Position numbers and translations under genes: made by a program. The notes beneath the pieces were generated by a model that was not told the origin of the DNA, ran no database searches, and worked only from the letters and a program-made list of their open reading frames with translations. DNA of 10,721 nucleotides from contig JACPHL010000232.1 of NCBI GenBank assembly GCA_016188625.1, positions 1-10,721 of the forward strand, written 5' to 3'. Of the stretch, positions 329 through 10,121 are shown piece by piece. Numbering within the stretch: position 1 is the first letter of the stretch; each line of letters opens with the position of its first letter. Source of the DNA: Candidatus Rokuibacteriota bacterium (GTDB taxonomy: Bacteria > Methylomirabilota > Methylomirabilia > Rokubacteriales > JACPHL01).

Positions 329-405
329 TCAGAAGAGGGGGAGGGACCAGGTGCCGAACTGAGCGCGGAAGCGGTCGTGGATCTCGCGAAGGGTCGCCCC
401 CGCCT
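273..405 (-). repeat. Right arm of the large inverted repeat
   Basis: This is the reverse-complement partner of 1-133. Bases 329-405 are the last 25 codons and stop of the complete mutase gene; 273-328 are its 3' flank. The non-coding part is clearly more diverged than the coding part. That pattern fits a real, aged duplication kept similar within the genes, and is not what an exact fold-back assembly artefact would give. Confidence 0.85.
290..306 (-). terminator. Short GC hairpin downstream of the mutase stop
   Basis: On the minus strand a 6-bp stem CGGGGG/CCCCCG encloses a 5-base TTCTG loop, 23 bases past the mutase stop codon. No T-run follows, so as an intrinsic terminator it is weak; it may only be a 3'-end stabiliser or chance in GC-rich DNA. 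The matching place in the left arm forms a poorer stem. Confidence 0.3.
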
Positions 406-1987
406 CGGCGGCCGCCATCACCGAGGGGAAGGCGTTCCGGCCGGCGGCGAGGTCCGACTCCAGGGCGGCCAGGGCCCCCGCGCAGGCGGCCTGGTCGCGG
501 GAGGCCTTGACCCGGCGGATCCGCTCCCCCTGGCGGGCCGCGGCCGACGGCTGCTCGAAGACCTCCGGCGGCTCCTCGTCCCCCTCGACGAAGCAGTTGA
601 CCCCGACGACCTTGAGCCGCCCCTCCTTGACCGCGGCCCGGTAGCCCTCGGCGCTCTCGGTGAGCCGCGCGTGGATCCACCCCGACTCGGTGGCGGCCAC
701 GATCCCGCCCTGCGCCTCCACCTCCTCGAGGAGCGCCCGGGTCCTGGCCTCCACCTCGCGGGTGAGCCCCTCGAGGAGGTAAGAGCCGCCGAGGGGGTCC
801 ACGGCGCTCGTGACCCCGGACTCATGCTGGATGATCTGCTGGGTCCGGAGGGCCAGGCGCGCCGCGGCCTCGGTGGGGAGGCCCCACGCCTCGTCGTGCC
901 CCGAGACGTGGAGGGACTGGGCCCCGCCCAGGACCGCGGCGAGGGCCTGGTAGGCCGCGCGGACCGCGTTGTTGAGCGGCTGCTGGGCGGTGAGGGTGAC
1001 CCCGGAGGTCTGGACGTGGAAGCGCAGGGCCGCGGCGCGCGGGTCGTGGACGCCGAACTCCTCGGTCACGATCCGCCACCAGAGCCGGCGGGCGGCCCGG
1101 TACTTGGCGATCTCCTCGAAGAAGCTCCGGTGGGCGGCGAAGAAGAAGGAGAGGCGCGGCGCGGCCCGCTCCGCGTCGAGGCCCCGGCGGCCCAGCTCGC
1201 GGAGGACGGCCCGGGCATGGGCGAAGGCGAAGCCCAGCTCCTCCACCGCGGTCGCCCCGGCCTCCCGGAGGTTGTAGCCGACGAAGGAGACGGGGTTCCA
1301 GCGCCCGGCATGGCGGAGGGCGTACTCGATGGCGTCGCACTCCAGGCGGAAGCTCGCGGCCGGCGGCAGGGCGCGCGGGGCGGTGGTGACCGCCGTCTCC
1401 ATGAGGAAGTCATTCTGGCTGGTCCCGGCGAGCCGGTCGAGGTCGAGGCCGCGGCGGCGGGCCAGGGCGAAGTACATGGCCAGGATGACGATCGCCATCC
1501 CGGGGTTGCAGGCGACGAGGGAGACGCTCACCTCCTCGATCGGGATGCCGGCGAAGAGGACCTCCAGGTCCTCGAGGCAGTCCACCGCCACCCCGCCCTT
1601 CCCCGCCTCCGCCCGCGCCTCGGGGTCGTCGGAGTTGTACCCGCGCAGGGTCGGGTAGTCGAAAGTCAGGGAGAGCCCGGTGGCGCCCTGGCGGAGGAGG
1701 TAGTGGAACCGCGCGTTGGTGTCCTCCGGGGTCCCGAAGCCGGCCAGGGGGCGGACGGTCCAGAGCCGTCCCCGGTACATCGTGGGGTGCACCCCGCGGG
1801 TGAACGGCGGCGCGCCGGGGAAGCCGAGCTCCCGGAGGTAGTCGAAGCCGTCGAGGCCGGCCGGGGTGACCAGGGGCGGCACCGGGATCCCCGAGACGGT
1901 CTCGAAGGGCTCGGGGCGCTCGGGCGAGCGGGCGTAGCGCTCGGCCCGCCAGCGCGCCTCGGCTTCCCGGATCTCGTCCGGATCCAT
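329..1987 (-). CDS. B12-dependent acyl-CoA mutase large subunit (methylmalonyl-CoA mutase superfamily), divergent active site
   Basis: This 552-residue protein is the substrate-binding TIM-barrel subunit of an adenosylcobalamin-dependent acyl-CoA mutase. It ends without a B12-binding domain (no DxHxxG), matching the roughly 560-residue large subunits of isobutyryl-CoA and 2-hydroxyisobutyryl-CoA mutases, which need a separate small subunit. CoA-contact residues of the family are kept: T69, M70, R74, T77 and R79 in the TMYRGRLWTVR stretch, S106, R278, H324, Q326 and Q357. By my alignment to Propionibacterium MutB, Tyr89 is Leu81, Arg207 (binds the substrate carboxylate) is Thr201, and His244 is Asn239 (GYNLREAGA). 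The usual H-T-N motif reads H360-V-S. The substrate is therefore unlikely to be methylmalonyl-CoA and cannot be named. The ATG lies 3 nt after the ligase stop, with GGGAG upstream, so it is the last gene of the operon. Family assignment is firm; substrate unknown. Confidence 0.92.
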   Translation of the reverse strand: MDPDEIREAEARWRAERYARSPERPEPFETVSGIPVPPLVTPAGLDGFDYLRELGFPGAPPFTRGVHPTMYRGRLWTVRPLAGFGTPEDTNARFHYLLRQGATGLSLTFDYPTLRGYNSDDPEARAEAGKGGVAVDCLEDLEVLFAGIPIEEVSVSLVACNPGMAIVILAMYFALARRRGLDLDRLAGTSQNDFLMETAVTTAPRALPPAASFRLECDAIEYALRHAGRWNPVSFVGYNLREAGATAVEELGFAFAHARAVLRELGRRGLDAERAAPRLSFFFAAHRSFFEEIAKYRAARRLWWRIVTEEFGVHDPRAAALRFHVQTSGVTLTAQQPLNNAVRAAYQALAAVLGGAQSLHVSGHDEAWGLPTEAAARLALRTQQIIQHESGVTSAVDPLGGSYLLEGLTREVEARTRALLEEVEAQGGIVAATESGWIHARLTESAEGYRAAVKEGRLKVVGVNCFVEGDEEPPEVFEQPSAAARQGERIRRVKASRDQAACAGALAALESDLAAGRNAFPSVMAAAEAGATLREIHDRFRAQFGTWSLPLF

Positions 1988-1990
1988 GAT

Positions 1991-3256
1991 TTACTCCCAG
2001 GTGCGCTCGTCGGCGATCTTCGTGGCGCCCTCCGGGATCGTCCCCGGCGGGACGACCCGCACCTCGCCCCGGAGGTGCATCACCTCCTGGATCGCCCGGG
2101 CCATCTCGGCCTGGAGCCGGGCGGGGTCGGCGCCCTCGCCCAGCTCGACGCGGAAGGTCATCTCGTCCTGGTGGTCGCGGCGGGTGATCACCACCTGGTA
2201 GCGGATGACCGCCGGGAAGCGGGCGACGACCTCGTCGGCCTGGCGGGGGTGGATGAACATCCCCCGGACCTTGGTGACCTCGTCGGCCCGCCCGCGCCAG
2301 CCGAGCATCCGGGGGGAGGTCCGCCCGCAGGGGCAGGGCTCCTCCGTGAGCACGGAGAGGTCCCCGGTCCCGAAGCGGATCATCGGGTAGGCCGGCTGGT
2401 TCACCGTGACGACCATCTCGCCGATCTGGCCCGGCGGCAACGGCTCGCCGGTCTCGGGGTCGGCGATCTGGAGGACGGCGTCCTCCACGAGGTGCATCCC
2501 GACCTTCTCCCGGCACTCGTAGGCCACCATCCCGAGGTCCGCGGTCCCGAAGCCCTGCCGGGTGAGGACCCCGTAGGTCTCCTCGAAGCTCCGTCGGAGC
2601 GACTCCGGCAGCGGCTCAGCCGCGACGTTGGCCACCTCGAGGGCGAGTCGCGTCCCGAGCTCCTCGGCCCGCTTGAGGATCGTCAGGAGGAAGCTCGGGG
2701 TCCCGACGTAGCCGTTCACCCCGAGGTCCTGCGCCACGCGGACCTGGAGGTCCGTGTTCCCGGGCCCGGTGGGGATGACCGTGCAGCCGAGCCGGAGGAG
2801 GCCGGCGTCGATCATGTGGGCGGCCGGGGTGAGGTGGTAGGCGTAGGTGTCGATGACGACGTCGCCGGGCCGGAAGCCCCCGGCGTAGAGCCCCACCTCC
2901 GCCCGCCAGGGGCTCGGCGCGGCCCCGATCGGCTCGTAGATGGGTCCGGGGGAGACGAAGACCCGCCGTAGCTCCTCCCGGGGGAGGCCGGCGAGGCCGC
3001 CGAAGGGCGGGTCGGCCCGTTGGAGGTCGGGCATCGCGGACTTCTTGAGGACGGGGAGCCGGGCCAGGTCGGCGAGGCCCCGGATGTCGCGGGGCCGGAG
3101 CCCGGCCGCCTCGAGCCGGCGGCGGATCCCGGGGGCGTGGCGCCAGGCGTGGCGGACCAGCCTCCGGAGCCACGCCTCCTGGTAGCGCTGCCGCTCCGGC
3201 GGCGGGAGGGTCTCCTTCCCGGCCTCGTAGTAGCCGCTCAGCCGATCCGGTCGCAT
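1991..3256 (-). CDS. PaaK-like phenylacetate-CoA ligase family protein with altered P-loop
   Basis: A 421-residue cytoplasmic protein of the adenylate-forming superfamily, the usual length for PaaK (about 430). Visible PaaK landmarks are VTP-like VGTPSFLLTI (184-193), GFGTADLG (235-242, in place of YGxTE), RFGTGDL (294-300), the CPCGRTSPRMLGWRGRADE segment (308-326), VRG (330-332), and a late lysine K413 in ATKIADER, the expected catalytic position. The odd part is the phosphate-binding loop: where PaaK has SSGTTGKPT this protein has SPGPIYEPIG (102-111), losing the Gly-Thr-Thr core. I recall such variants beside Liv-type transporters, but their activity is unclear to me. The ATG is 2 nt past the livF stop; a longer open frame reaching back to 4117 only runs through livF in another frame. 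The expected job is ATP-dependent CoA activation of an imported carboxylic or aryl acid; substrate unknown, and activity is uncertain given the loop. Confidence 0.88.
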   Translation of the reverse strand: MRPDRLSGYYEAGKETLPPPERQRYQEAWLRRLVRHAWRHAPGIRRRLEAAGLRPRDIRGLADLARLPVLKKSAMPDLQRADPPFGGLAGLPREELRRVFVSPGPIYEPIGAAPSPWRAEVGLYAGGFRPGDVVIDTYAYHLTPAAHMIDAGLLRLGCTVIPTGPGNTDLQVRVAQDLGVNGYVGTPSFLLTILKRAEELGTRLALEVANVAAEPLPESLRRSFEETYGVLTRQGFGTADLGMVAYECREKVGMHLVEDAVLQIADPETGEPLPPGQIGEMVVTVNQPAYPMIRFGTGDLSVLTEEPCPCGRTSPRMLGWRGRADEVTKVRGMFIHPRQADEVVARFPAVIRYQVVITRRDHQDEMTFRVELGEGADPARLQAEMARAIQEVMHLRGEVRVVPPGTIPEGATKIADERTWE

Positions 3257-3258
3257 CC

Positions 3259-4059
3259 CTAGCTCAGCCAGCGCTTCCTGCGCTTGTAGTGCTTGACGTC
3301 CCGGTAGGACTTCCGGCTCCCGACCTCGGTCAGCCCGAGGTAGAACTCCTTGATGTCCTCGTTCTCCCGGAGCGTGGCGGCGTCGCCGTCCAGGACGATC
3401 CGTCCCGTCTCCATGACGTAGCCGTGGTGCGCGATGGTGAGGGCCATGGTCGCGTTCTGCTCCACCAGGAGCACGGTCAGCTTCTCCTCCCGGTTCAGCC
3501 GCTGGATGATCTCGAAGATCTCCTCGACCAGCCGGGGGGCCAGGCCCAGGGAGGGCTCGTCCAGGAGCATCAGCCGGGGGCGGGACATGAGGGCCCGCCC
3601 GATGGCCAGCATCTGCTGCTCCCCCCCGGAGAGGTAGCCGGCCTTGAGGTCCCTCCGCTCCCGGAGGCGGGGGAAGTACCCGTAGACCATGTCGAGCCCG
3701 CCCACGATCGCCCCCCAGTCGCCCCGGGTGTGGGCGCCCGCGATCAGGTTCTCCTCCGTGGTGAGGTGCTCGAAGATCCGCCGCCCCTCCAGGACCTGGA
3801 CGATCCCCCGCCGGACGATGGCGTGAGCCGGGAGCGTGTCGATCCGCTCCCCGGCGAACTCGATGGCGCCGCCGGTCACGGCGCCGCGCTCCGGGCGGAG
3901 GAGGCCGGAGACGGCCTTCAGGGTGGTGCTCTTCCCCGCCCCGTTGGCCCCGAGGAGGGCGATGATCCCCCCCTCGGGGACCTGGAGCGAGACCCCCTTC
4001 AGGACCAGGATGACCTGGTCGTAGATGACCTCGACGTTGTTGAGCGCCAGCACAGGCAT
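3259..4059 (-). CDS. livF: Branched-chain amino acid-type (HAAT) ABC transporter ATP-binding protein LivF
   Basis: A 266-residue ATPase, one of the two nucleotide-binding subunits of the importer, acting at the cytoplasmic face of the LivH/LivM permeases. Walker A is GANGAGKST (37-45), the signature LSGGEQQM (143-150), Walker B LMLLDEP (163-169), followed by LLVEQNA (197-203), which is typical of LivF. EGRRIF (91-96) matches the LivF VPEGRRxF motif. The chosen start gives MPVLALNN, the normal LivF beginning; an in-frame GTG at 4146 would add 29 unconserved residues. There is no good Shine-Dalgarno before either start. The protein is about 30 residues longer than E. coli LivF: the basic tail (from about 246, RKSYRDVKHYKRRKRWLS) may be specific to this transporter subgroup. 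It follows the binding-protein gene after 127 nt, the largest gap within the transporter operon. Confidence 0.93.
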   Translation of the reverse strand: MPVLALNNVEVIYDQVILVLKGVSLQVPEGGIIALLGANGAGKSTTLKAVSGLLRPERGAVTGGAIEFAGERIDTLPAHAIVRRGIVQVLEGRRIFEHLTTEENLIAGAHTRGDWGAIVGGLDMVYGYFPRLRERRDLKAGYLSGGEQQMLAIGRALMSRPRLMLLDEPSLGLAPRLVEEIFEIIQRLNREEKLTVLLVEQNATMALTIAHHGYVMETGRIVLDGDAATLRENEDIKEFYLGLTEVGSRKSYRDVKHYKRRKRWLS

Positions 4060-4164
4060 GACCCCGTGGGACCCAGCCCTTGATCCTTTCGGGAGAACTA
4101 CCCGGTCCTCTCCACAACTCTCGGCCCCGCGCTCGGCTCGGTCCACGTCCGGGCGGGGGGAGAA

Positions 4165-4190
4165 ATGAGGGGGGTGGCAGCCCCCCTCAT
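4165..4190 (-). terminator. Perfect 10-bp stem-loop at the 3' end of the binding-protein gene
   Basis: ATGAGGGGGG (4165-4174) and CCCCCCTCAT (4181-4190) pair perfectly around a 6-base loop. The TGA stop of the binding-protein gene lies inside the stem. On the minus strand the stem is followed by TTCTCCCCCC, a weak pyrimidine tract and not a T-run. Such a structure can be a leaky terminator or a block to 3' exonucleases that raises the level of binding-protein mRNA over livF and the genes after it. Structure seen directly; role inferred. Confidence 0.6.
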
Positions 4191-5413
4191 GATTTCTTGA
4201 GGGCCTCCTGGAGGATGTCGGGGTAGGCCTTGAACCAGTCGGTCACCCGGGTCCACTTCCCCCCCTTGACCTGCCAGACCTGGACCCAGCCCCCGCCCTC
4301 GTGGTCGTTGGGGGTGATCTCCAGGGGCGGGACGAGGCCCCCCAGGGTGACGCCCTTGATCATCTCGAAGCCCTGCTTGACGTGCTCGCCCTTGATCTGG
4401 GGCCCGAACTTCTTGATGGCGTTCCGGATCGCCTCCACGTGGACCGCGGCCCACAGGACCCCGCGGTTGTAGTAGACGCTGTGCGCCATCTCCTTGGGCG
4501 GGGCCTGGCCCTCGTCCCTGTACATCTTGACGATCTCCTGGATCACCGGGAAGTCCTGGCCGACCCCGGCGTACTGGAGCCCGAGGTAGCCCTCGGCCGT
4601 GGCCCAGCCGGCGGCCTCGACGTCCGACTCGGCGGCCCCCCACACGAAGCTGACCACCCGGTCCAGGGGGTAGCCGACCCGCTTGAGCTCCTTGATGGAG
4701 ACCGAGGGCGAGCGGCCGAACAGGTGCGTGATCACCCAGTCCGGCCGGAAGCGGCCGCCGATGTCCAGGACCTGGGCGCTCATCTCGATCCCGGGCGGCG
4801 GCACGGCGAAGGTCCTCAGCTCGAACCCCTCCCGCCTGGCGAGGGTTTCCAGGATCGGGAGGGGCTCCCGGCCCGCGGGGTTGTCGTAGAACAGGAAGGC
4901 GACCTTGCCCACCTTCTTCCCCTGCTTCTTGGACTCGTCGAGGAGGAACTTCACCGCCGCGGTGGCCTGGGACCAGTAGCTCGCGGCCACGGGGAAGACG
5001 TAGGGGTACTTGGTCCCGTCGGTGGCGTCCGCCCGCCCGAACCCGGGGGCGGTCCCGGGGATCCGGTCCTCGGTGAGCTTCGGGGTCAGGGCGTAGGTCT
5101 GGGGGGTCCCGTAGAGCATGAGGGAGACGATCCCCTCCTGCTTCATCTTCTCGTAGGACTCCACCGCGAGGGGGACCTGGTATTTGATGTCGATCTCGAT
5201 GACCCGGACCCTGTGCCCGTCCACGCCGCCCTTCTTGTTGACCAGCTTCACGTAGTCGTGGGCCCCGGGGCAGAGGAAGGGGCCGATGGTGTTGGTGGGA
5301 CCGACCCGATCGCACTGGAGCCCGACCGCGATCTCGTGGCCGGCCCAGACCGGCGACGCGGCCGCGGCCAGCGCCAGCACCGCCGCGAGGGTGAGGGCGA
5401 GACTTCGTGTCAT
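4187..5413 (-). CDS. Periplasmic substrate-binding protein of the HAAT ABC transporter
   Basis: A 408-residue secreted binding protein of the Leu/Ile/Val-binding (type I periplasmic, Peripla_BP_6) family that captures the ligand and delivers it to LivH/LivM. Residues 1-24 are a Sec signal peptide: MTR, a hydrophobic Leu/Ala core, and a likely signal peptidase I site after PVWA. No lipobox Cys is present. The mature part shows the family pattern: AHDYVKLVN-KKGGVDGHRV near 51-68, YGTPQTYAL, YPYVFPVAASY, and the late EGYLGLQYAG segment. It contains only two cysteines, C34 and C48, which could form a disulfide. The start is well supported by a strong Shine-Dalgarno. Its ligand cannot be read from sequence; the adjoining CoA ligases and mutase suggest an organic acid and not an amino acid (inference). 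Confidence 0.93.
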   Translation of the reverse strand: MTRSLALTLAAVLALAAAASPVWAGHEIAVGLQCDRVGPTNTIGPFLCPGAHDYVKLVNKKGGVDGHRVRVIEIDIKYQVPLAVESYEKMKQEGIVSLMLYGTPQTYALTPKLTEDRIPGTAPGFGRADATDGTKYPYVFPVAASYWSQATAAVKFLLDESKKQGKKVGKVAFLFYDNPAGREPLPILETLARREGFELRTFAVPPPGIEMSAQVLDIGGRFRPDWVITHLFGRSPSVSIKELKRVGYPLDRVVSFVWGAAESDVEAAGWATAEGYLGLQYAGVGQDFPVIQEIVKMYRDEGQAPPKEMAHSVYYNRGVLWAAVHVEAIRNAIKKFGPQIKGEHVKQGFEMIKGVTLGGLVPPLEITPNDHEGGGWVQVWQVKGGKWTRVTDWFKAYPDILQEALKKS

Positions 5414-5438: not shown

Positions 5439-6506
5439 TTAGTACGCGAAGGGCCAGACCCGGAAGTAGTCCTTGATGTTCCGCCAGAGCTTGTTGAGCC
5501 CCTCGGGCTCCACCACCAGGAAGAAGACGATGAGGGCGCCGAAGAGGATCAGCTGGACGTTGGTGATGAGGTTGAGGACGTCGGGGATGGTGAAGAAGAG
5601 GCCCCCGATCCCCTCGACGACGTACCGGAGCACGATGGGCAGGAGGGTGAGGAAGACGGCCCCGAAGATCGAGCCCAGGATGGAGCCGAGCCCCCCGATG
5701 ATGATCATGGCCAGGAAGTCGATGGAGGTGACGATGGTGAACTGCTCGTAGTTGGCGATCCCCAGGTAGTAGGTGTAGAGGACCCCGGTGACCCCGGCGT
5801 AGAAGGAGGAGATGGCGAAGGCGAGGAGCTTGTAGCGGAAAATGTGGATCCCGATGATCTCGGCGGCCACGTCGTGGTCGCGGATGGCGATGAAGGCGCG
5901 CCCCGCCCGCGTCCGGAACAGGTTGAGGGCGGCGACGACGCCGAGGGCCGCGACGGTCATGATGAAGTAGTACATCTCCCGCTGGCTCTGGATGAGCAGG
6001 CCGCCCAGGGCGGGGCGCGGCACGTAGATGGAGGCCTGCACCCCCCCGCTGATCCACGTGACGTGGTTGATGGTCCACTCGATGACGAACTGGCCCGCCA
6101 GGGTGGCGATGGCGAGGTAGAGCCCCTTGATCCGGAGGGAGGGGGAACCGACGATCATCCCGACGAGGGCGGCCATGGCGCCGCCCGCGGGGAGGCAGAC
6201 CCAGACCGGCAGCCCCGCGCGGGTGGCCAGGATGGCGGCCGTGTACGCCCCCACGGACATGAAGGCCCCGTGGCCCAGGGAGATCTGGCCGGTGTAGCCC
6301 GTGAGGATGTTGAGCCCGATGGCCCCCACCACGGCGATGGCGGCCAGGTTGGCGATGGAGAGGAGGTAGTCGCCGGCGAGCAGGGGGAAGACGCCGAAGG
6401 CGGCCGCCGCGATGGCCCCCACCGTCCACCGGGCCAGGGGCACCGGGTAGAGGGCCATGTCGGCCGCGTAGCTGGTCTTGAGGACGCCGCACTCCCGGTG
6501 GATCAC
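5439..6506 (-). CDS. livM: HAAT ABC transporter permease LivM
   Basis: A 355-residue inner-membrane permease, the second transmembrane subunit. LivM landmarks are GYTGQISLGHGAFMSVGAY (70-88), LRIKGLYLAIATLA (124-137), the cytoplasmic coupling loop GRAFIAIRDHDVAAEIIGI (202-220) that docks an ATPase, and GGLGSILGSIFGA (271-283). Multiple hydrophobic segments span roughly residues 28-335. The start is GTG at 6506, 3 nt after the livH stop. I chose it over the internal ATG near residue 17 because the N-terminal CGVLKTSYAADMAL stretch resembles what I recall for homologues. The C-terminus is soluble (WRNIKDYFRVWPFAY). The Shine-Dalgarno is weak, so it is probably translationally coupled to livH. 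Confidence 0.93.
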   Translation of the reverse strand: MIHRECGVLKTSYAADMALYPVPLARWTVGAIAAAAFGVFPLLAGDYLLSIANLAAIAVVGAIGLNILTGYTGQISLGHGAFMSVGAYTAAILATRAGLPVWVCLPAGGAMAALVGMIVGSPSLRIKGLYLAIATLAGQFVIEWTINHVTWISGGVQASIYVPRPALGGLLIQSQREMYYFIMTVAALGVVAALNLFRTRAGRAFIAIRDHDVAAEIIGIHIFRYKLLAFAISSFYAGVTGVLYTYYLGIANYEQFTIVTSIDFLAMIIIGGLGSILGSIFGAVFLTLLPIVLRYVVEGIGGLFFTIPDVLNLITNVQLILFGALIVFFLVVEPEGLNKLWRNIKDYFRVWPFAY

Positions 6507-6509
6507 GGC

Positions 6510-7406
6510 TCAGACCCGCTCGATGATCTCCTTCCCGAAGATCCCGTAGGGCCGGACCATCAGGGCCAGGATCATGAGGAGGTAGGGGACGAAGTCCTTG
6601 GTCCCGCCCCCCACATAGGGGTCGATGTAGCCGGCCGCCACGCCCTCCACCACCCCGACGATCAGCCCGCCCACGACGGCCCCGGGGATCGAGTCCAGGC
6701 CGCCGAGGATCACCACGGGGAAGACCTTGAGCCCCACCAGGGCCAGGTGGACGTCCACCCCCAGGAGGTTCCCCCAGATGATCCCCCCCAGGGCCGACAC
6801 GATCCCGGCCATGGCCCAGGCCAGGGCGAAGTACCGCTCCACGTTGATCCCCATGGCCATGGCGACCTGCTGGCTGTCGGCCACCGCCCGCATGGCGATC
6901 CCCATCCGGCTCCGGAGAAAGATGTACCCGAACACGGCCAGGAATGCCAGGCTCACCCCGGCGGCCACGAGCTGGATGGGGGAGACGAGGACGACGACAT
7001 CGAGGACGTTCACGAGGAAGGGGGCCTCGGGGATCGGGAGGGGGAGGTTCTTGGTCTCGGCGCCCCAGACCAGGGGGCCCGTCCCCTTGAGGATCGCGGC
7101 GAGGCCGATGGTCGCCATGATCACCGCGATGACCGGGCGGCCGATCAGGGGCCGGAGCATGACGCGCTCGATCCCGAAGCCGAGGAGCATCATGGCCAGG
7201 ACGGCGATCGCCACGGTCGCCGCCAGGGGGACCCGGTAGAGCTGGATGAGGGCGGCGACGAAGAAGCCGGCGATCATCACCAGCTCCCCCTGGGCGAAGT
7301 TGATGGCGTCGGTGGCCTTGTAGATCAGGACGAACCCGAGGGCGATCAGGGAGTAGAGGGTCCCCACCAGGAGGCCGTTGACGACCAGGAGGGCGAAGAA
7401 GTCCAC
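6510..7406 (-). CDS. livH: HAAT ABC transporter permease LivH
   Basis: A 298-residue inner-membrane permease, the normal LivH length, partnering LivM. Landmarks are NGLLVGTLYSLIALGFVLIY (10-29), KATDAINFAQGELVMIAGF (30-48), the coupling loop GIAMRAVADSQQVAMAMGI (169-187), and GGLDSIPGAVVGG (235-247). The hydrophobic segments give about eight membrane helices. The start is a GTG at 7406, 7 nt past the stop of the upstream ligase; GAGGGGG overlapping that stop is a plausible ribosome-binding site. Both permeases use GTG starts, which may lower their synthesis relative to the binding protein. Confidence 0.93.
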   Translation of the reverse strand: MDFFALLVVNGLLVGTLYSLIALGFVLIYKATDAINFAQGELVMIAGFFVAALIQLYRVPLAATVAIAVLAMMLLGFGIERVMLRPLIGRPVIAVIMATIGLAAILKGTGPLVWGAETKNLPLPIPEAPFLVNVLDVVVLVSPIQLVAAGVSLAFLAVFGYIFLRSRMGIAMRAVADSQQVAMAMGINVERYFALAWAMAGIVSALGGIIWGNLLGVDVHLALVGLKVFPVVILGGLDSIPGAVVGGLIVGVVEGVAAGYIDPYVGGGTKDFVPYLLMILALMVRPYGIFGKEIIERV

Positions 7407-7413
7407 GGCCCCC

Positions 7414-9351
7414 TCAGGCCGCCGCCACCAGCGCCCCCTCCACCTCCTGGATGCGGACCGCGGAGTGGATGGTCGCCTGCCGGCCGTCCTCGTAGGTGAT
7501 GGTGGTGGCGACAGGAACCGAGGCCTGGTCCGAGTAGAGGGCCTCCACCAGGTCGGCGTACTTCTCGGCGATGAACCGCCGCCGGACCTTCCGGGTCCGG
7601 GTGATCTCGGCGTCGTCCGGGTCCAGCTCCTTGTGGAGGATGAAGAACTTCCTGATGCGGGTCGGCCCGGGGAGGCCCGCGTTGATCCGCCGCACCTCCT
7701 CGCCGACGAGGGCGTAGACCTCGGGCTTATGGGAGAGGTCCATGTAGCTCGTGTAGGCCAGGTTCCGCTTCTCGGCCCAGTTCCCCATCGTCCCCAGGTC
7801 GATGTTGATCATGGCGGCGACGTAGGGGCGCCCGTGGCCGACGGCCACCGCCTCCCGGATGTAGGGGCTGAACTTCAGCTTGTTCTCGATGAACTGGGGG
7901 GCAAAGGGGGTCCCGTCGGCCAGGCTCCCCAGGTCCTTGGCCCGGTCGATGACCACCAGGTGGCCGTCGGGGTCGAAGAAGCCGGCGTCCCCGGTGCGGA
8001 ACCAGCCGTCCTCGAGGACCTCGCGCGTGGCCTCCTCGTTCTTGTAGTACCCCTGGAAGACGCCCGGGCCCCGGATGAGGATCTCCCCCCGCTCGGAGAT
8101 CCGCACCTCCACGCCGGGGGCCGGCCTCCCCACGCTCTCGGGCTTGACCTCGCCGTCGGGCTGGACGACGCACGCCGCCGAGGTCTCGGTGAGGCCGTAG
8201 ATCTGCTTGAGGTTGAGCCCGATGCCCCGGAAGAACTGGAAGATCTCCGGCCCGAGGGCGGCCCCGCCGGTGTAGGCGTAACGCACCCGCCCCAGCCCGA
8301 GCTGGTCGCGGATGGGGCCGTAGGCGACCACCTCGCCGAGGGCGTAGAGGAGCCGGAGGCCCAGGGGGGCCCGCTGCCCGGCGGCGCGGCGGGCGAGGAT
8401 GCGGGCGGCCACGGCCATGGCGCCGCGGTAGAGGGCCCGCTTCACCCGATCCGAGTCCTCGATCTTCACCTGGACGGTCGTCAGCATCGCCTCCCAGATG
8501 CGGGGCGGGGCGAGGAGCACGGTGGGCCCCAGCTCACGCAGGTCCCGCTGGACCGTCTCGGGGGCCTCGGGACAGTTGATGGTGTAGCCCACCAGGAGCT
8601 GGCCCACCAGGGAGTAGATGACCTCCCCGATCCAGGCCATGGGGAGGTAGGCGAGCAGCTCGTCCGTGTCCCGGTAGCGCTCCACCGCCAGGAAGGCGTC
8701 CAGGTTGGCGATGAGGTTCCGGTGGGAGAGCATGACCCCCTTGGGGTGCCCGGTGGTCCCCGAGGTGTAGCAGATCAGGGCCGTGTCCCCCGCCGACCCC
8801 CTGGCCACCCCCCTGGCCACCTCCGCCTCGACGTACCCCGGCCGGGCCCGGCCGAACTCGCGCCCGAGCGCTTCGACCCGCTCGAAGGCGAGCAGGCTCG
8901 GGTCCCGGTCCCCCCCGAGCCCGCGGGCGTCGTCGAAGACGATCTGGCGGAGATGGGGGAGCTCCCCCTGGAGGCCCCGGATCTTGTCCACCTGCTCCTG
9001 GTCCTCGGCGACCACGACCTTGACCTCGGCGTGGTCGAGGACGTACTGGAGCTCGCGGGCGATGGAGTCCTGGAAGAGCGGGACCGGGATCCCGCCGAGG
9101 GCCTGGGCGGCCAGCTGGGCCCAGTAGAGCCGGGGCCGGTTGTCGCCGATCACCGAGAGCGCGTCCCCGCGCCGGAACCCCAGGGTGGCCAGCCCGAGGG
9201 CGAAGGCGCGGACGTGCTCCGCCGCGTCGGCCCAGGTGTAGGGACGCCAGATGCCCCGGTCCTTCTCGCGGATGGCCACCTTCCGCGCGCCGTAGCGCGC
9301 GGCCTGGTGGAGGAGGAGCTTGGGCAGGGTGTCGGGCTCGGCCGCGCTCAT
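7414..9351 (-). CDS. AMP-forming long-chain acyl-CoA synthetase-type ligase
   Basis: A 645-residue ligase of the long-chain acyl-CoA synthetase (FadD15-like) branch, which adenylates a carboxylic acid with ATP and transfers the acyl group to CoA. Motifs in order: P-loop TSGTTGHPKGVMLSH (196-210), YLPMAW (235-240), APPRIWEAM (281-289), YGLTET (385-390), GWFRTGD (449-455), hinge region DRAKD (469-473), FAPQFIENKLKFSPYI (483-498), and K588 in TRTRKVRRRF as candidate catalytic lysine. All core residues look intact, unlike the PaaK-like protein. The ATG overlaps the livG stop by 4 nt (ATGA), so translation is coupled; the longer open frame to 9522 runs into livG. A 12-bp tandem duplication lies before the P-loop. 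Its position between livG and livH suggests that it activates what the transporter imports; chain length and substrate are unknown. Confidence 0.93.
   Translation of the reverse strand: MSAAEPDTLPKLLLHQAARYGARKVAIREKDRGIWRPYTWADAAEHVRAFALGLATLGFRRGDALSVIGDNRPRLYWAQLAAQALGGIPVPLFQDSIARELQYVLDHAEVKVVVAEDQEQVDKIRGLQGELPHLRQIVFDDARGLGGDRDPSLLAFERVEALGREFGRARPGYVEAEVARGVARGSAGDTALICYTSGTTGHPKGVMLSHRNLIANLDAFLAVERYRDTDELLAYLPMAWIGEVIYSLVGQLLVGYTINCPEAPETVQRDLRELGPTVLLAPPRIWEAMLTTVQVKIEDSDRVKRALYRGAMAVAARILARRAAGQRAPLGLRLLYALGEVVAYGPIRDQLGLGRVRYAYTGGAALGPEIFQFFRGIGLNLKQIYGLTETSAACVVQPDGEVKPESVGRPAPGVEVRISERGEILIRGPGVFQGYYKNEEATREVLEDGWFRTGDAGFFDPDGHLVVIDRAKDLGSLADGTPFAPQFIENKLKFSPYIREAVAVGHGRPYVAAMINIDLGTMGNWAEKRNLAYTSYMDLSHKPEVYALVGEEVRRINAGLPGPTRIRKFFILHKELDPDDAEITRTRKVRRRFIAEKYADLVEALYSDQASVPVATTITYEDGRQATIHSAVRIQEVEGALVAAA
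8797..8820 (-). repeat. Perfect 12-bp tandem duplication inside the ligase gene
   Basis: GTGGCCAGGGGG occurs twice back to back on the minus strand and is in frame, giving VARG-VARG at residues 178-185. It lies in the linker just before the P-loop, and both units use the Arg codon AGG. It looks like a recent replication-slippage event. Confidence 0.85.
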
Positions 9352-10121
9352 GCCCGCCGCTTCCCGGCCCCGAGGTAGGCCTCGATCACCGCCGGATCGG
9401 ACCGGACCTCCCCGGGGCTCCCCTCGGCGATCTTCCTCCCCTGGTCGAGGACGGCCACCCGATCGGAGATGTCCATGACCACGCCCATGTCGTGCTCGAT
9501 GAGGACCACCGTGACCCCCCACTCCTCGCTGACGTCCAGGACGAAGCGGGCCATGTCCTCCTTCTCCTCCTGATTCATCCCCGTCATGGGCTCGTCGAGG
9601 AGGAGGAGCCGGGGCTCCAGGGCCAGGGCCCGCCCCAGCTCCACCCGCTTCTGGAGGCCGTAGGGGAGGGCCCCGACCACGCGCTTTCGGATATCCTGGA
9701 TCTTGAGGAAGTCGATGATCTCCTCTACCCGCTCCCGGTGGCGGACCTCCTCGCGCTGGGCCAGGCCCCAGTAGGCGATGGAGGGGAAGATCCCGGAGCG
9801 CATGCGGACGTGGCGGCCCAGCATGAGGTTGTCGAGGACCGTCATCCCCTTGAAGAGGGCGATGTTCTGGAAGGTCCGCGCGACCCCGAGGCGAGCGACG
9901 CGGTGGGGAGGGAAGTGGGTGATGTCAAGCCCGCCCAGGGTGATCCGGCCGCGGTGGGGGTGGTAGACCCCGCTGATCCCATTCAGGAGGGTCGTCTTGC
10001 CGGCCCCGTTGGGCCCGATGACCGCGAGGAGCTCCCGCTCGCGAACCTCGAGGGAGACCCCATCGAGGGCCCGGACCCCGCCGAAATCCTTGACGACGTC
10101 CTCGATCCAAAGGAGCGCCAT
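9348..10121 (-). CDS. livG: HAAT ABC transporter ATP-binding protein LivG
   Basis: A 257-residue ATPase, the other nucleotide-binding subunit, normal length for LivG. Walker A is GPNGAGKTT (36-44), the Q-loop is in ARTFQNIALF (Q85), the signature is the LivG-type LPYGLQKRVELGRAL (152-166) in place of LSGGQ, Walker B LLLLDEP (172-178), and the H-loop LIEHDMGVVM (208-217, H210). The C-terminal AEGSPGEVRSDPAVIEAYLG is typical of LivG. It starts with ATG at 10121, with no strong Shine-Dalgarno, and its TGA overlaps the following ligase ATG. It is the first transporter gene in transcription order, 71 nt after the lipoprotein gene. Confidence 0.95.
   Translation of the reverse strand: MALLWIEDVVKDFGGVRALDGVSLEVRERELLAVIGPNGAGKTTLLNGISGVYHPHRGRITLGGLDITHFPPHRVARLGVARTFQNIALFKGMTVLDNLMLGRHVRMRSGIFPSIAYWGLAQREEVRHRERVEEIIDFLKIQDIRKRVVGALPYGLQKRVELGRALALEPRLLLLDEPMTGMNQEEKEDMARFVLDVSEEWGVTVVLIEHDMGVVMDISDRVAVLDQGRKIAEGSPGEVRSDPAVIEAYLGAGKRRA

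Follow-up and report, generated by a model that had tools for sequence, protein, structure and literature searches.

An RcmA-related acyl-CoA mutase large subunit with asparagine at the place of the active-site histidine

The mutase RcmA of Kyrpidia tusciae interconverts 2-hydroxyisobutyryl-CoA and (R)-3-hydroxybutyryl-CoA (PMC7176365), and the mutases of K. tusciae and Bacillus massiliosenegalensis have been purified and are active (PMC11599936). Here we compare RcmA and other AdoCbl-dependent acyl-CoA mutases with a large subunit encoded in the window, the whole 10.7-kb stretch of DNA that was analysed (contig C26 of a 2.6-Mb MAG, 84% complete). The reading that we favour, and consider likely, is that this protein is an Asn-type large subunit related to RCM, whose acyl-CoA substrate would be branched or hydroxylated and would lack a free carboxylate.

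The active site of the window mutase

The mutase gene is an intact open reading frame encoding 552 amino acids. The gene and the codons of its altered pocket are located as follows:

329 to 1987, minus strand: Asn-type AdoCbl-dependent acyl-CoA mutase, large (substrate-binding) subunit, RcmA-related, with L81, T108, T201-T202 and N239
1745 to 1747, minus strand: codon for Leu81, at the MutB Tyr89 position (by alignment; coordinates counted from the start of the ORF at 1987)
1664 to 1666, minus strand: codon for Thr108, at the MutB Ala116 position, which is Asp in HCM and Val in RcmA (by alignment)
1382 to 1387, minus strand: codons for Thr201-Thr202, at the MutB Arg207 position, with a one-residue insertion that makes the partner ambiguous (by alignment)
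1271 to 1273, minus strand: codon for Asn239, at the MutB His244 position, invariant across the clade (by alignment)

The protein is a full-length match to PF01642 (585 bits; curated cut-off 22.1), and its AlphaFold2 model (pLDDT 82.8) has HCM 4r3u as its top PDB match, with a TM-score of 0.92. Family score and mutase fold together place it among the large subunits of AdoCbl-dependent acyl-CoA mutases.

The sequence was aligned with MutB, human MCM, HCM 4r3u and about 150 homologues. Leu81, Thr108 and Asn239 fall at the sites of MutB Tyr89, Ala116 and His244, as an earlier note on this DNA had proposed, and these assignments are safe because the columns flanking the pocket sites (R79, G83, D110, G237, Y238 and R241/E242) are invariant in the clade. 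At the MutB Arg207 site the partner is T201 or T202, a Thr either way as had been claimed. MutB Gln197, Tyr243 and Glu370 are retained as Q191, Y238 and E366, and the columns that contact CoA and the cofactor are kept, in agreement with the earlier statement about CoA contacts. The odd active site is real: the alignment does not restore Tyr, Arg or His.

At positions 89/116/207/244 the alignments contain Y/A/R/H in MCM, F/A/Q/H in ICM-like enzymes and I/D/Q/H in HCM. The residue types that the earlier note had given for these enzymes are thus correct, and so is its statement that the window pocket fits none of them. Methylmalonyl-CoA mutase (MutB, human MMUT; 38-41% identity) shares with the window protein its fold, CoA contacts, Gln197, Tyr243 and Glu370, whereas its Tyr89, Arg207 and His244 are each replaced, by Leu, Thr and Asn. 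The isobutyryl-CoA mutase type is alike in fold and in the absence of Arg207, but it has Phe89, Gln207, His244 and a DxHDRG small subunit and forms a separate clade. HcmAB, the 2-hydroxyisobutyryl-CoA mutase (HCM) of Aquincola (4r3u; 45% identity), is the most similar in fold and also has a separate small subunit, an aliphatic residue 89 and no Arg207; in contrast, the window protein has Thr for Asp116 and Asn for His244, lies outside the HCM clade, has neither Ile nor Val at 89 and lacks a neighbouring HCL.

With the loss of Arg207 the carboxylate anchor is gone. In human MCM the replacement R228Q, at the same position, leaves activity undetectable (PMC10356863), and the earlier argument that loss of the Arg speaks against a substrate with a free carboxylate is upheld.

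The Asn-type clade and its small subunits

Asn at position 244 was found in 21/21 L/I-type relatives and in 0/120 of the His-type (ICM-, MCM- and HCM-type) relatives compared, and it is therefore not a chance replacement. The Asn-type sequences form a single group apart from MCM, ICM and HCM, with 99% SH-aLRT support in a first tree, still 99% after removal of 20 diagnostic columns and the long-branch rows, and 100/100 in a careful tree. In addition to 89, 207 and 244, positions 110, 123, 166, 200, 202 and 329, among others, set the clade apart. Its hosts belong to the window's class and to the Thermodesulfobacteriota, Myxococcota, Bacillota and Chloroflexota, and include an Archaeoglobales MAG. 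A deeper Asn-type pair from an actinobacterium and a Helarchaeote (L043 7995-10102; L074 2689-4767) has Phe89 (F-A-Q-Y-Y-N) and DGHWRG small subunits.

The clade also contains RcmA. Asn-type mutases were found in 4 of the 398 genomes searched in the class that includes the genome taken as K. tusciae. In the presumed K. tusciae operon, genes for GntR, MeaH, a mutase, a DIHWRG small subunit, an SDR and HCL are consecutive, and the rcm operon has been described likewise (PMC7176365). The mutase of this operon is taken to be RcmA, being recognized by its operon among other features and not by an accession. Its pocket residues are Ile, Val, Gln, Ser, Tyr and Asn, and it lies inside the Asn clade. 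The window mutase shares with it the clade (100/100), Asn at 244, the absence of Arg207 and the insertion in the 207 loop, and the close relatives of the window mutase have a DxHWRG small subunit as RcmA does. The two differ in their pockets (Ile, Val, Ser and His168 in RcmA; Leu, Thr, Thr and Cys160 in the window protein) and in their partners, RcmAB being paired with HCL and MeaH and the window mutase with a PaaK-like ligase and a Liv transporter. They are 51% identical, but some ICM/MCM-like paralogues reach 49-50% identity to the window mutase too, so that shared function with RcmA is not to be assumed. Because the mutases of K. tusciae and B. massiliosenegalensis were purified and are active, an enzyme of this kind can work with Asn where MutB has His244.

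The gene that follows an Asn-type mutase encodes a B12-binding small subunit with the motif DxH[W/Y]RG in place of DxHDRG. In a first count the altered motif occurred in 20/20 Asn-type loci with the gene, and DxHDRG in 39/39 other loci. A wider alignment of 21 Asn-type and 53 other small subunits, to which G074 and small subunits without a typed mutase partner had been added, gave the same split. A further 13 Asn-type loci all have W, bringing the total to 34/34, although some of these loci are closely related and the independent events are fewer than 34/34 and 39/39 imply. Both motifs retain the His that ligates cobalt and the Asp before it. The small subunit thus co-varies with the Asn-type large subunit. 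Asp609 of Methylobacterium MCM is a MeaB salt-bridge residue (PMC9974510); a reading in which the Asp that follows the cobalt-ligating His corresponds to this residue was dropped, as the position seemed not to fit.

In three close relatives (G003, G046 and G074) a DSHWRG small-subunit gene adjoins the mutase, whereas the window contig ends 328 bp past the mutase without one. No DxHWRG small-subunit gene was found elsewhere in the MAG, at its 84% completeness. The corresponding stretch of the window is:

78 to 328, no strand: intergenic stretch with an interspersed repeat of ~185 bp (core 111 to 294), where relatives carry the small-subunit gene

Copies of the repeat at 111-294, with about 90% identity, GGGAGGC...GCCTCCC bounds and unrelated flanks, occur at some 40 sites of the MAG; an Rfam search of the window, this repeat included, gave no matches. 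At the contig edge, positions 1-77 duplicate the 3' end of the mutase gene in inverted orientation, at 97% identity, and face the mutase across the repeat; they are either a second, convergent copy or an artefact of fold-back assembly.

The collected loci contain several further unusual mutases. Three Syntrophobacterales/Desulfobacterial clusters (L012 2649-10071, L192 883-9230 and L194 5403-10561) each encode consecutive mutases of two or three kinds, along with MeaB and the small subunits that belong to them; the kinds present are an Asp244 type (VIQGYD; L012 and L192), an LCQQYH-like type and the Asn type. Four consecutive mutase-like frames, of which two are very divergent, one of these two lacking the Arg207 segment, adjoin acyl-CoA dehydrogenase and enoyl-CoA hydratase genes in G046 (L130 4451-14398). 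Mutases of L140, L142, L130 (12752-14398) and L012 (14336-15997) keep Arg207 and His244 and have Ala or Gly for Tyr243. Those of L140 and L142 adjoin enoyl-CoA hydratase and CoA transferase genes, and are perhaps IaaGH-like enzymes for bulky malonyl/succinyl-type CoA esters. On a Sphingobium plasmid, a mutase with nearly all active-site residues altered (L138 2899-4620; V-E-V-V-A-Q) is accompanied by a small subunit and MeaB. L136 may, as a guess, represent ethylmalonyl-CoA mutase.

The window subclade and RCM

Within the Asn clade, the window mutase groups with those of G003 (72-74% identical), G046 and G074 (support 100/99). The pocket L/T/Q/T/Y/N is conserved in 4/4 members, with Pro replacing Gln just before the Leu; the L/T/T/N combination is thus, as the earlier note had envisaged, the property of a separate clade. 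The gene is present in only 4/95 genomes of the window's class. RCM sequences form their own subclade (100/100) with I/L-V-S at 89/116/207, and the two subclades differ at positions 89, 116, 119, 168, 207 and 240. They also differ in motifs, with THLPS, LPTIRG and a DIHWRG small subunit in RCM versus ACNPG, YPTLRG and DSHWRG in the window subclade. The window mutase, with its own subclade, L/T/T/N and the CNPG motif, therefore falls outside the RcmA subclade in the strict sense; the tree leaves the branching order among Asn-type subclades unsettled.

This separation bears on the alternative that the window enzyme is simply an RCM, which would interconvert 2-hydroxyisobutyryl-CoA and (R)-3-hydroxybutyryl-CoA and do the same job with other pocket residues. 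The Asn clade and the small-subunit signature common to both would fit such an enzyme, but the subclades are distinct and the genome already has an I/D/Q/H HCM, which on contig C209 (L120; G000:C209) adjoins an HCL 64% identical to that of Kyrpidia. Co-existence is not fatal to the alternative, as Bacillus massiliosenegalensis is reported to have both HCM and RCM forms (PMC7176365). A second genome, G101, argues against it: a mutase of the RCM subclade, lying in a TPP enzyme-SDR-MeaB cluster that resembles reported clusters of acetone-degrading sulfate reducers, is present there together with a sister-type one (L017), which suggests divided roles. On balance we think that a plain RCM is unlikely, while taking it seriously. 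A TPP-lyase motif scan of the first loci found none at Asn-type loci; one was later found in L202. A short repeated segment, apparently an assembly error, interrupts the frame of the C209 HCM, and the window genome also has an ICM-type (F/A/Q/H) mutase on C320, a type common in the order.

The separate subclades, the pair of mutases in G101 and the genome's own HCM-HCL suggest that the window enzyme has a different substrate from RCM. The earlier note had raised the possibility of an undescribed specificity, and this survives in part. Asn at 244 is shared with the characterised RcmA, so the clade is not undescribed and the Asn, as a family trait with a known member, is not in itself a sign of new specificity. 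Of the refuting case that the note had named, placement in a characterised mutase clade with the same residues, one half thus holds. A new substrate could nevertheless be involved, because the pocket differs from that of RcmA and an HCM-HCL pair is encoded separately in the genome.

Neighbouring genes and the proposed reaction

Upstream of the mutase, the window encodes two CoA ligases and a Liv-type transporter:

1991 to 3262, minus strand: PaaK-like AMP-binding acyl-CoA ligase, next to the mutase on its upstream side, with about 29% identity to HCL
3259 to 4077, minus strand: LivF-type ABC ATPase
4187 to 5413, minus strand: LivK-type substrate-binding protein (PF13458)
5439 to 6506, minus strand: LivM-type permease
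6510 to 7406, minus strand: LivH-type permease
7414 to 9351, minus strand: long-chain-type acyl-CoA synthetase (FadD-like)
9348 to 10121, minus strand: LivG-type ABC ATPase

A Liv transporter with PaaK-like and FadD-like ligases is also found near the mutase in G074, and a PaaK-like ligase with Liv genes in G003, in differing gene orders; a Liv-FadD set lies near a Desulfobacterial Asn-type mutase (L195). However, 31/95 genomes of the window's class have an orthologue of the ligase and 47/95 one of LivK, mostly without a window-type mutase (4/95), and since they are common without the mutase, the neighbours are weak evidence on its substrate. A PaaK-like ligase was nearby in 7/24 Asn-type loci versus 0/60 His-type loci. 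As a general marker of the Asn type its proximity was rejected, 3/7 of these cases being the generic locus of the window's class, and was kept for Bacillota and Chloroflexota, where it is informative because the ligase is HCL-like. Ligases of the HCL (2-hydroxyisobutyryl-CoA ligase) type adjoin Asn-type mutases in Chloroflexota and in Bacillota, both Bacillus and others; in Bacillus aerolatus, for instance, GntR, MeaB, mutase, small subunit and ligase genes are in a row, and the ligase scores 502 bits to 6hdw versus 240 to PaaK. The window's own ligase, at 29% identity, is not an HCL.

The adjoining PaaK-like and FadD-like ligases could be taken to deliver an acyl-CoA with an aryl or long-chain substituent, much as for IaaGH, the mutase of indoleacetate degradation, whose partners are a CoA ligase and an uptake protein (PMC8360864). 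The transporter and ligases near the mutase in the window and G074, partly in G003, and the set in L195 are in keeping with this. IaaGH substrates, however, retain a carboxylate that would need Arg207; the window protein keeps Tyr243, and the putative bulky-substrate mutases, with Ala or Gly at that position and Arg207 kept, belong to another clade. The iaa-like role is further weakened by HCL being itself PaaK-like and by the frequency of Liv-PaaK loci without the mutase, and we regard it as improbable.

His244 mutants of MCM are strongly impaired, a sister-subclade relative has Ala at 244, and replacement of Arg207 abolishes MCM activity (human R228Q, PMC10356863), but a degenerate paralogue that has lost activity is very improbable given that RcmA, with Asn and without Arg, is active (PMC7176365, PMC11599936) and that an invariant pattern with a co-varying small subunit at dozens of loci is not what drift produces. 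The H244A MCM structure 1e1c is among the PDB matches of the model of the window mutase. The relative with Ala at 244 (L196 510-2174, in G153) belongs to the Desulfobacterial subclade, and a search of its adjoining genes gave no typical small subunit.

For the favoured reading, an RCM-related Asn-type mutase, we infer from sequence an active enzyme and the following course. The acyl-CoA would bind inside the TIM barrel, held by the conserved CoA contacts, and a separate DxHWRG small subunit, known from relatives and located off the window contig, would supply His-on cobalamin. Co-C homolysis would generate a substrate radical, and the CoA-thioester group would migrate 1,2, as in the MCM family, such that a branched and a linear acyl-CoA would be interconverted. 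Asn239, at the place of His244, probably hydrogen-bonds the thioester carbonyl, hydrogen-bond donation still being possible. Leu81, Thr108, Thr201/202 and Cys160 would form a pocket without a cationic partner; the probable substrate is therefore an acyl-CoA that is branched or carries a 2- or 3-hydroxy group and has no free carboxylate. Thr108 could hold a substrate hydroxyl, the job of Asp in HCM. Uptake of the acid may fall to the Liv-type transporter, and its activation to the two CoA ligases.

A bolder proposal, which we put forward tentatively and rate a little below an even chance, is that the window subclade, and perhaps its Desulfobacterial sister, is a B12 mutase derived from Asn-type stock with a substrate new for acyl-CoA mutases, Asn244 and the aromatic residue beside the cobalt-ligating His being a co-evolved catalytic variant.

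A puzzling triad thus becomes a defined family that spans bacteria and archaea in several Asn-type subclades, one of them with a characterised enzyme, and that has a matching change next to the cobalt ligand of the small subunit. It provides a sequence rule to separate RCM-type mutases from methylmalonyl-CoA mutase, their common annotation, and the Asn-type mutases are a natural test of the role of the catalytic His. Their subclades point to further candidate mutases for C-C rearrangement, a reaction that is of interest for branched-acid catabolism and engineered carbon pathways.
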